Part shown: one piece after another, positions 21,927-51,529 of the stretch
Numbering within the stretch: the stretch's first letter is position 1
How the letters are laid out: the number at the start of each line of letters is the position of its first letter
From: a virus
Reading direction: 5' to 3' (one strand)
Length of the DNA stretch: 64,000 bases
IMG/VR virus record: IMGVR_UViG_3300020394_000862
Location: 18,224 to 82,223 of that record
Notes under the pieces: model-generated
Database searches by the model: none
Told to the model about the DNA's origin: nothing
The model's input: the letters and a program-made list of their open reading frames with translations, nothing else
Translations under genes and position numbers: made by a program

Positions 21927-22062
21927 ACGCTTGAAATGACTTATCCAACTACGGTATTAATTGTGGTTGTAGAGCATCGAAGGATGCAACTGGCGCAGAA
22001 TTAGGATTCGTATGCCAAAATAATTTATTGTAAACTTATCAAATCCCATGAGGAACTATAGT

Positions 22063-22668
22063 ATGTCAAAACGTGACGTTATTAACGAAATGATCAAAGA
22101 CCGCGCAGCTTATATTGAAGGAAAAACACCTGTTCGTATTGCTGGGCTTGAATCAATCCACGCTGTGGTTTATATTTCTGACGACCCAGAAAACAAAAAA
22201 TTCCAAGCAGCTATGTTCCAAGGTAAGCGTGCAACACCTGACGCGTTTTTTGCATATGATAGCGCAGAAGTTCGCGACGCACGTATTAACGATTGGGTCA
22301 AGCCACTAGCCGAGCGTGTTGCACGTAAGGAAGCTAAAAAGCTTGAAACTCGTGCTAAGCGCATGAAACCGCTAGGCATTTCTAAAGGTGAAGTGTTCTA
22401 TACAGCCGAAGAAGGTCCAGCGACATTTTACGAAGTTACCGGACTAAAAGGTCCTACTGGCATCAAGCTACGCCGTATTAAGTCTGAGACAATTTCACCG
22501 AATACGTTTGTTCCTGTTCCAGGCAAGTTCGACGGTGACGAAATGATTTATAACGTTGAAACCCGTAAGCTTACCGCCCAAGTTAATGGCCAAACTGCAC
22601 AGCGCCTTAACTCAACCGGTACTGGTAAATCACGAGCGTTTGATTCAGTTTACACTACTAACGCGTAA
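22063..22668 (+). CDS. Hypothetical protein, 201 aa
   Basis: Start at 22063 (MSKRDVINEM) with GAGGAA seven bases upstream. Basic, lysine-rich central helix (ERVARKEAKKLETRAKRMK) followed by a beta-rich C-terminal domain. A single-gene transcription unit on the plus strand with its own promoter and strong terminator, an arrangement that suits a protein needed in quantity. Not recognised. Confidence 0.7.
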   Translation: MSKRDVINEMIKDRAAYIEGKTPVRIAGLESIHAVVYISDDPENKKFQAAMFQGKRATPDAFFAYDSAEVRDARINDWVKPLAERVARKEAKKLETRAKRMKPLGISKGEVFYTAEEGPATFYEVTGLKGPTGIKLRRIKSETISPNTFVPVPGKFDGDEMIYNVETRKLTAQVNGQTAQRLNSTGTGKSRAFDSVYTTNA

Positions 22669-50416: not shown

Positions 50417-50761
50417 TTACTGTGGTTTTTTGAACACGTTTGCTATCCCCAAAGACAGAACCCATCGAGAGCCTTTCTCTATTTTAGACACAGAGTGATA
50501 GTCTCTATCTGCTCTAAAGACGTGCAATCTATCAAACAACGACCATTTACGCTTACACTTGAAAACACCGCCTTGCTGAGCTTTACGGAGTTCTAAGTTT
50601 ATACGAGTAGTAGGACCGTTTGTTTTAGGATCTTTATGTTTAGGAATGAATGAACCCTCGGGATACCTGAATAGATACAAGTCGATACCGAGTGTTTTAG
50701 AATGGAATAGAGTGAATATTTTATAGCCGGTGGCGAACTTATCGTTGCCCCAGCGCCACAT
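50417..50761 (-). CDS. 2OG-Fe(II) oxygenase-like protein with in-frame amber codon upstream
   Basis: From ATG 50761 the product is 114 aa: a minimal double-stranded beta-helix with His42-x-Asp44 (PKHKDP), His89 and Arg99 (DYHSVSKIEKGSRW), the iron and 2-oxoglutarate ligands of the prolyl-4-hydroxylase-like family. ATG 50761 has no ribosome-binding site. In the same frame, 33 bases upstream, is ATG 50794 with a perfect AAGGAG eight bases before it, but its third codon is TAG (50786-50788). A tRNA with amber anticodon lies 170 bp upstream. The longer product would be 125 aa. Substrate unknown. Confidence 0.65.
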   Translation of the reverse strand: MWRWGNDKFATGYKIFTLFHSKTLGIDLYLFRYPEGSFIPKHKDPKTNGPTTRINLELRKAQQGGVFKCKRKWSLFDRLHVFRADRDYHSVSKIEKGSRWVLSLGIANVFKKPQ

Positions 50762-50809
50762 TTTAAGTGATGGTTTTTGAGTGTTCTAACGCATGACGTT
50801 TCTCCTTAA

Positions 50810-50938
50810 TTATACTTTAAACTTGCATGGACCAGGGTAATGACAGCCGCCAGATGATGTCGTATATTGACAGAGTCCGCCAAACGAGCATATGAACGAC
50901 GAGTTGTTGACATAAATATTGACAACAGGAATTACCAT
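50810..50938 (-). CDS. Small Cys-rich protein, 42 aa
   Basis: AAGGAT ribosome-binding site seven bases before ATG 50938. Four cysteines at 17, 23, 32 and 38 (spacing C-x5-C-x8-C-x5-C) with His33 nearby would suit a zinc-binding or disulfide mini-domain. Lies between the tRNA and the oxygenase gene in the same direction. No family known. Confidence 0.5.
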   Translation of the reverse strand: MVIPVVNIYVNNSSFICSFGGLCQYTTSSGGCHYPGPCKFKV

Positions 50939-50960
50939 TATATATCCTTGTAAATTAGGT

Positions 50961-51031
50961 TGGTGACCCCGGCGGGATTCGAACCCACTTTCGCGGTTTT
51001 AGAGACCGGCTACTTATGCCAAATCAGGGCC
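50961..51031 (-). tRNA. Putative amber-suppressor tRNA, anticodon CTA
   Basis: 71 bases with encoded CCA. Acceptor GGCCCTG pairs with CGGGGTC (two wobble pairs), discriminator A. T-arm GTGGG-TTCGAAT-CCCGC is regular. Anticodon arm CGGT-CTCTAAA-ACCG gives anticodon CTA (51000-51002) with T33 and A37; a fifth pair is a C-C mismatch. That arm is nearly that of E. coli tRNA-Trp, with CCA changed to CTA. The D-arm is short (GGC/GCC) and lacks the usual GG. It would read UAG. It may be a working suppressor or a decaying tRNA; the deviations lower confidence. Confidence 0.6.
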
Positions 51032-51453: not shown

Positions 51454-51504
51454 TTACGGTTCTCTGACTGGGTTTCCTAGTTTTCTATCTTCTACGATTT
51501 TCAT
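51454..51504 (-). CDS. 16-codon leader ORF
   Basis: MKIVEDRKLGNPVREP then TAA. AAAGGAGG stands six bases before the ATG, the best ribosome-binding site in this stretch, 18 bp below TATAAATA. It is either a leader peptide or the true N-terminus of the following gene after a +1 shift at CCG-TAA-A. Confidence 0.4.
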   Translation of the reverse strand: MKIVEDRKLGNPVREP

Positions 51505-51521: not shown

Positions 51522-51529
51522 TATTTATA
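51522..51529 (-). promoter_or_regulatory. Late promoter TATAAATA (tRNA operon)
   Basis: Exact T4 late consensus on the minus strand, heading the unit of leader ORF, acidic protein, tRNA, Cys-rich protein and oxygenase. Confidence 0.6.

Follow-up and report, generated by a model that had tools for sequence, protein, structure and literature searches.

An early in-frame TAG paired with a phage tRNA of anticodon CUA: indications of a putative natural suppressor-tRNA gate

The window locus and its oxygenase gene

The window analysed here, a stretch of 64,000 nucleotides, is part of an 82-kb IMG/VR record assigned to a T4-like myophage by its gp23, gp20 and sheath genes. Behind gp23, the minus strand carries in succession a T-run hairpin, a TATAAATA box (51522..51529, identical in L002-L005), small ORFs, a tRNA gene, an ORF of 42 codons and a gene with an early in-frame TAG; all the features of this unit given below lie on that strand. 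The TATAAATA box resembles the T4 late promoter motif, and its function is only inferred.

The tRNA gene (50961..51031) is a compact, putative amber-suppressor gene of 71 nt which encodes its own CCA end and has A at position 73. Its anticodon CTA (51000..51002) lies within the loop CTCTAAA and is invariant among five close copies. The gene stands 166 nt upstream of the TAG gene, with a small ORF of 42 aa between them (50810..50938) that is possibly a bystander or possibly a member of the same operon. The leader of the TAG gene reads AAGGAG-N7-ATG-CGT-TAG (50807-50786), with the Shine-Dalgarno sequence at 50802..50807, the start codon at 50792..50794 and the TAG, as codon 3, at 50786..50788; the next base is A and the frame then stays open to 50417. 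An earlier reading of the window (the first-pass annotation) had placed the tRNA and the ATG at these positions and had described the anticodon, the AAGGAG, the TAG and the open frame, and all of this proved correct when checked against the sequence. It had also remarked that the ATG following the TAG lacks a ribosome-binding site, which a script test for Shine-Dalgarno sequences confirmed for 50761, and that the tRNA has an atypical D region and a C-C mismatch in the anticodon stem, both visible in the sequence (the latter as C27-C43).

If the TAG is read, the gene (50417..50794) would encode a protein of 125 aa, whose domain matches phrog_13746 and has no match in Pfam. Its AlphaFold model is a beta-barrel (pLDDT 85.7) in which the four residues after the TAG fall below 50. 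The top PDB match is human AspH (aspartate beta-hydroxylase; 5apa, E 3.1e-4, query TM 0.60), and cupins, other AspH entries and one prolyl hydroxylase (P4H) rank lower. The signature of 2OG-Fe(II) oxygenases is a double-stranded beta-helix with HxD...H and a distal Arg; in the oxygenase alignment the H-K-D, H and R columns are invariant. By motif and fold, the product is thus predicted to be an AspH-like 2OG-Fe(II) oxygenase, its activity being inferred.

At 51454-51504 (-), a tiny ORF stands behind AAGGAGG and begins with ATG-AAA, and the sister phages L003-L005 have ATG-TAA instead. A candidate ochre counterpart at 22012 (+), where SD-ATG-CCA-AAA-TAA is followed by an open frame, was rejected as less good than the normal start at 22063.

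The early TAG and the compact tRNAs of the oxygenase group

Relatives of the oxygenase gene were drawn from IMG/VR and from cultured phages. The group that we call family 1 comprises 19 records (G000-G015, Xanthomonas phage XaC1 and the Vibrio phages CZ01 and nt-1), several of them near-duplicates; about 13 lineages were counted. Outside the window's own group, identity to the query is 39-61%. An in-frame TAG between the start and the domain motif (K)PTLRLWKWG is present in 19/19 records, and an early stop (for brevity, a gate) together with a cognate tRNA in the same genome is likewise found in all of them. The TAG is codon 2 in nt-1 and CZ01, 4 in L029, 6-7 in L030 and L031, and 8 in L007 and, counted from the first ATG, in L032; codon 3 also occurs, the whole range being 2-8. 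A Shine-Dalgarno sequence precedes the start in 11 of the 13 sequences tested, the exceptions being L029 and L032. Nine more distant homologues (Vp_R1, SJSY21, FLC9 and six Pseudomonas phages) have no TAG between annotated start and domain, and the N-terminal stretch itself is absent from them. A search of genome contigs gave no confirmed relative. Phage D6 (L016) was considered and set aside: it has ATG-TAG about 20 codons upstream of the annotated start but the pattern finds no CTA tRNA in it, and the weak model match nearby is a tRNA-Thr. In L029 (2971-3400), the TAG-gated oxygenase gene has a second in-frame stop, a TAA inside the domain, which may stem from an error in sequencing, from decay or from recoding at a second stop.

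ARAGORN makes no call for the window tRNA and the Rfam tRNA model gives it 26.2 bits, under the 29-bit cut-off; a covariance model (R1) built without the window sequence finds it at 37.8 bits. The standard models fail because this RNA belongs to a compact class, which the model built from relatives recognises. Upstream of the oxygenase genes of XaC1, L006, L008, L025-L027, L030 and L031, the compact element has a 7-bp acceptor, a linker of 7-9 nt, usually with GG, that replaces the D-arm, a long interrupted anticodon stem with the loop CTCTAAA or TTCTAAC, and then the T-arm, A73 and CCA. A73 is nearly all that the family 1 acceptors have in common, and L032, with G73, is an exception even to this. 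Acceptor and T arms, the CCA end and a 7-nt anticodon loop with CUA are present in the window tRNA and its relatives. The canonical D-armed cloverleaf is not achieved, the D-arm being absent in the modelled relatives and reduced in the window, where the predicted fold keeps a 3-bp D-like hairpin. The window tRNA is the least typical element of the group; by eye its acceptor is paired at 7/7 positions, two of them G-U, and in the sister L003 a G to A change in the acceptor converts a U-G into a U-A pair.

In an alignment of eight of these tRNAs, 98.7% of the pair cells are standard, as against 58.0% in shuffles, and both-sided change is seen in 18 of 19 pairs, as against 11.4. A plain MAFFT alignment of ten had been misregistered; the two window-type tRNAs were omitted and the other eight N-padded by hand to a common length. 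Two of the eight are near-identical and the fit was made by hand, which tilts the counts towards structure, and weight is therefore placed on held-out matches to the covariance model. Next to a TAG gene these reach 68.1 bits in L029, 54.3 in L032, 51.7 in L035 and 42.9 in nt-1 and CZ01, besides the window; further matches are L183 (53.3 bits) and Alishewanella phage Slickus01 (45.9 bits), in whose tRNA loop C replaces U33. The model scores canonical tRNAs up to about 30 bits, and informative scores are those above about 38. Folding energy gave no support for the tRNA of the window (z -0.07) or of L006 (z 0.12), the input stretches being a few end bases short, which leaves these z-scores little weight.

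A CUA tRNA, mostly D-armless, lies within 0.7 kb of the oxygenase gene in 18 of the 19 records. Besides the window, the gap is 19-51 nt in seven records, 381 nt in L029 and 639 nt in L032, and in L035 and nt-1 the tRNA is found immediately 3' of the gene. The D-armless tRNA of nt-1 measures 67 nt. The remaining record, G006 (L007), has no CUA tRNA nearby; its tRNA(CTA), a canonical one, is some 60 kb distant. In the sister record G001, the 23 tRNAs called by ARAGORN are at 173-197 kb, and the CTA tRNA stands apart at 13 kb. Inside that cluster ARAGORN reports a 97-nt tRNA-Stop with anticodon TTA (L297:9501-9597, minus strand), possibly an ochre suppressor, possibly a mis-called class II tRNA.

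With the TAG near the start in every record and the tRNA found by a model blind to the window, the observation is more than chance. The first-pass annotation had held that a failing tRNA model, or independent loss of TAG or tRNA in relatives, would refute its proposal. The general-purpose models do fail and the relatives-built one succeeds; all 19 records have both a TAG and a CUA tRNA. Its proposal that the TAG may be read as an amino acid late in infection is strongly supported in its first part by the conserved pairing of TAG and CUA tRNA across divergent phages, readthrough itself being inferred; the timing has not been shown, the TATAAATA box being a possible hint and no more.

From CUA tRNAs to further gene families

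An IMG/VR scan for CTA tRNAs was made without assuming any gene, using a pattern that required A73; it gave at least 120 loci. Most of the 135 accepted CTA tRNAs measure 74-78 nt, and seven measure 73 nt or less. An early stop was counted if it followed an SD-ATG by 2-10 codons and was itself followed by 60 or more open codons. Up to 1.2 kb from a CTA tRNA there are 30 TAG, 4 TAA and 0 TGA, and elsewhere in the same loci 21 TAG, 11 TAA and 18 TGA (odds ratio 10.4, Fisher p 2.7e-5, an optimistic value with loci that are related). The early TAG of L093, and probably that of L160, are artefacts of translating through the neighbouring tRNA, and L093 is included among the 30. As many loci are related, counts across families are not independent events either.

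No gated gene of families 1-3 was found in 88 of the 120 loci, which are fragments of 1-15 kb; 11 of these 88, and 4 of the 32 gated loci, look generally recoded. As a control, the pattern was applied to 11 records whose homologues are ungated (W04-W13, W15), with 0 matches, and to Phosso (W14), with two; among four gated cultured records it matched XaC1 and RHph_I1_18 and missed nt-1 and Slickus01, which makes it a weak control. Further early-TAG ORFs in CTA-tRNA loci are seen at L120:3079 and 7976, L105:8139-8630 (-) and L083:149-757 (-), one of them an HNH endonuclease, and likewise in L104 and L135; those of the first three loci are perhaps additional gated families.

Family 2, an unknown protein of about 188 aa, has the TAG in 80/80 of the best 80 among 380 relatives, that is, the loci closest to the gated queries; a motif test on the tRNA-first sample finds it in 28 of 35 loci, the other 7 being ungated. 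A scan without the A73 requirement gave 36 distinct family 2 tRNAs, with G1-C72 in 35, C2-G71 in 36, G3-C70 in 35 and A73 in 36. Rhizobium phage RHph_I1_18 has an unannotated family 2 gene directly before an annotated tRNA-Pyl(cta). In Phosso and Atu_ph07 the family 2 domain lies inside a longer, ungated ORF; Sinorhizobium phage Phosso (L335, L337) has two CTA tRNAs without an identified gated target, and an opal suppressor has been reported for Atu_ph07. For family 2, comparison of the structure with the PDB yielded nothing at E <= 0.001, and Pfam returned nothing for family 2 and no above-cut-off match for family 3.

Family 3, an unknown protein of about 100 aa, was entered through L183, in which a gene opening with ATG-AAG-AAA-TAG has a D-armless CTA tRNA in front of it. 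The TAG is present in 8 of 10 IMG/VR loci and, among six cultured records fetched, in five (KP2025, KP13-26, Slickus01, Astolliot and BUCT-ZZ01), all of which also carry a CTA tRNA within the stretch retrieved; the ungated members are L285, L287, L070 and the sixth cultured record, Mx1. In Klebsiella phage KP2025 (L189:962-1339), the terminal TAG of the gated gene lies inside the suppressor tRNA gene and is followed by one codon and a TAA. For families 2 and 3 together, a CTA tRNA stands in the retrieved flank of 55 of 90 loci, and 28 of the remaining 35 match the CTA-tRNA pattern elsewhere in the record. The latter count is approximate, as the pattern can match non-CTA tRNAs (L385) and the matches were not individually checked with ARAGORN.

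Family 4 is peptidyl-tRNA-hydrolase-like, with a strict gate in 23 of 33 loci and an in-frame TAG in 26; one of the other seven is a TGA case. The gated gene of L073 matches Pfam PTH2 (E 3.5e-25); L083 and L106 have no Pfam match, and the label PTH2-like therefore rests on L073 and on motif resemblance. Of four PTH2 loci, L338 has a strict gate, L339 one that can be made out by eye, and two have none. The TGA case, L369, reads ATG-GAA-TCG-TGA, with TGA as codon 4 at the gate position; about 1.1 kb upstream lie two tRNAs whose anticodon is TCA, and nothing in the record matches the CTA tRNA pattern. Stop codon and anticodon have changed together there, in what remains one case from a single genome. 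Correspondence is not complete in this family: L366 is TAG-gated, and the only pattern match in its record is a tRNA-Arg(tct), leaving no confirmed CTA tRNA; L357 is ungated, yet its record has a CUA tRNA.

A putative gate, its rivals and its known counterparts

The conserved TAG, the conserved CUA tRNA and their pairing are shown. The reading that we consider very likely, inferred from sequence alone, is that of a natural suppressor-tRNA gate, in which a stop near the start keeps a gene from being expressed as long as the phage has not made the matching tRNA. Ribosomes starting at the good ATG would stop after two residues, at the TAG of codon 3. The linked gene would yield a small tRNA with anticodon CUA which, once transcribed, processed and charged, would compete with release factor 1, and readthrough would then give the full-length oxygenase. 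A purine after TAG is a good context for suppression, and would probably assist it here: the +4 base is a purine in 14/14 family 1 rows, 80/80 in family 2 and 12/12 in family 3, and in family 4 it is A or G, with one C. The purpose may be to withhold the protein while the tRNA is lacking, which would act as a feed-forward delay and a leak filter. Charging, UAG decoding, readthrough, tRNA-dependent expression and the regulatory purpose are all inferred, as there are no protein, RNA or reporter data. The same design, with readthrough again inferred, occurs in at least the three other families described above.

One rival is that translation starts downstream, at ATG 50761, or reinitiates, with the TAG ending a tiny leader ATG-CGT-TAG and the tRNA unrelated. 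In its favour, the window has an in-frame ATG 8 codons past the TAG, the XaC1 gene is annotated from such a post-TAG ATG, and 21 of 61 family 2 contexts have an in-frame GTG at codon 9 after the TAG with a Shine-Dalgarno-like stretch. Against it, the next start never has a Shine-Dalgarno sequence in the 13 family 1 sequences tested, nor in any of the 18 family 1 and 3 examples checked, and sometimes there is no such start at all: none within 60 codons after the TAG in L007, L008 and L031, and none for 34-40 codons in L011, L029 and L030. Furthermore, the residues just after the family 2 TAG are conserved and change mainly at third positions (variation of 0.026, 0.043 and 0.269 at positions 1, 2 and 3 over codons 1-12, in 58 gap-free of 61 contexts), a bias which suggests that the stretch is likely translated, and downstream initiation would leave unexplained why the stop is TAG and the tRNA CUA. 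This rival is very unlikely; the caution of the first-pass annotation that initiation at 50761 cannot be ruled out still holds, improbable as it is for a general rule. Another possibility is a generally altered code (code 15, with TAG as sense), the oxygenase being one of many such genes; it finds some support in the 4 of 32 gated tRNA-first loci that look generally recoded, and in the CUA tRNAs described in code-15 jumbo phages (PMC13037316). However, TAG ends 64 of 435 called ORFs in G001 (30 of 269 with a Shine-Dalgarno sequence and at least 80 aa), and treating it as sense hardly raises the long-ORF coverage of the window (0.92 to 0.94). Three early-TAG ORFs occur in G001 (the oxygenase, one called ORF of 264 codons with TAG at codon 10, and one uncalled), next to three early-TAA ORFs; only the oxygenase is judged credible, the rest being likely chance. 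TAG as sense in many genes and rarely as stop, the mark of code 15, is seen neither in the window nor in G001, and this rival is all but excluded. The first-pass annotation had also thought general recoding unlikely; its figure of about eight genes ended by TAG differs from ours, which is 13 of 86 ORFs by a simple caller, or 5 of 47 with a Shine-Dalgarno sequence and at least 80 aa.

In an addiction scenario, a tRNA accidentally suppressed TAG, the gene acquired the codon and the pair became locked without any regulatory role, which fits the lack of expression data and the ungated state of some relatives. Random acquisition should scatter the stops; instead they fall at codons 2-10 in four families, with a +4 base that is nearly always a purine. 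The scatter argument carries a caveat, in that only early stops were searched and no systematic search for mid-gene TAG was made, and we regard addiction as unlikely. Alternatively, the TAG could insert a special residue that the protein needs, in a Pyl-like recoding, as the dedicated tRNA of unusual shape and the tRNA-Pyl label that ARAGORN gave to several of these tRNAs might suggest. ARAGORN applies this label to any CTA anticodon. Moreover, the TAG precedes a low-confidence N-terminal tail outside the catalytic fold, its codon number varies from 2 to 8, and unrelated families share the design; this rival appears very unlikely, with the reservation that pyl genes were not searched for.

The suppressor-tRNA gate, our preferred reading, would give a use to suppressor tRNAs of phages for which no target had been identified. 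It also implies that annotation loses conserved phage genes of this class or cuts them short: the gated genes are unannotated in RHph_I1_18 and KP2025, and in nt-1 and XaC1 the annotated start lies downstream of the TAG. In addition, it suggests that a working tRNA may lack the D-arm outside organelles, function being here inferred. A bolder reading, towards which the balance tips only slightly, is that stop-locked genes form a general, undescribed class of phage regulation, using UAG with CUA and at least once UGA with UCA, with the stop within the first ten codons. Such generality is challenged by the relatives without a gate and by the numerous CUA tRNAs, on short fragments, for which no gate was found. 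Were it true, the lock could also sense the release-factor or tRNA status of the infected cell, and some of the locked genes (those for the peptidyl-tRNA-hydrolase-like proteins and the AspH-like hydroxylase) may form a set that acts on translation; the PTH2-like and hydroxylase targets offer a possible hint of such a link.

The open-access literature searched, preprints not being covered, showed no natural example of a stop lock close to the start codon that has a tRNA of its own. To our knowledge, D-armless tRNAs of phages or bacteria were not known before some of these, and the open-access search found none. Among the known systems, code-15 phages (crAss-like, Lak and jumbo phages) share a phage-borne CUA tRNA expected to read TAG as sense. 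Unlike their genome-wide recoding, TAG stays here a normal stop, G001, checked whole, has a single credible gene with a start-adjacent TAG, and the family 1 tRNAs mostly lack the D-arm. Another case is that of the jumbo phages XacN1 and RsoM2USA, with reported orphan CUA suppressor tRNAs and, in the relevant sections, no claim of general recoding (PMC5852040, PMC8504454); those sections name no target gene, and the targets proposed here are in other phages. The word "suppressor" is absent from the main text of the XaC1 paper. Amber suppressors of E. coli such as su7 are mutant host tRNAs with a CUA anticodon and no dedicated target; the phage tRNA has the same anticodon but a proposed dedicated target. 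Selenocysteine and pyrrolysine recoding also employ a dedicated tRNA to read a stop codon in few genes, whereas here the stop adjoins the start codon and is found in unrelated families. A further likeness is a man-made one, the engineered suppressor-tRNA feed-forward loop called "leak dampener" (PMC7969014), in which, as in the proposed gate, a stop-bearing gene is expressed only with a co-produced suppressor tRNA; the phage version would be the natural counterpart of this synthetic-biology circuit.
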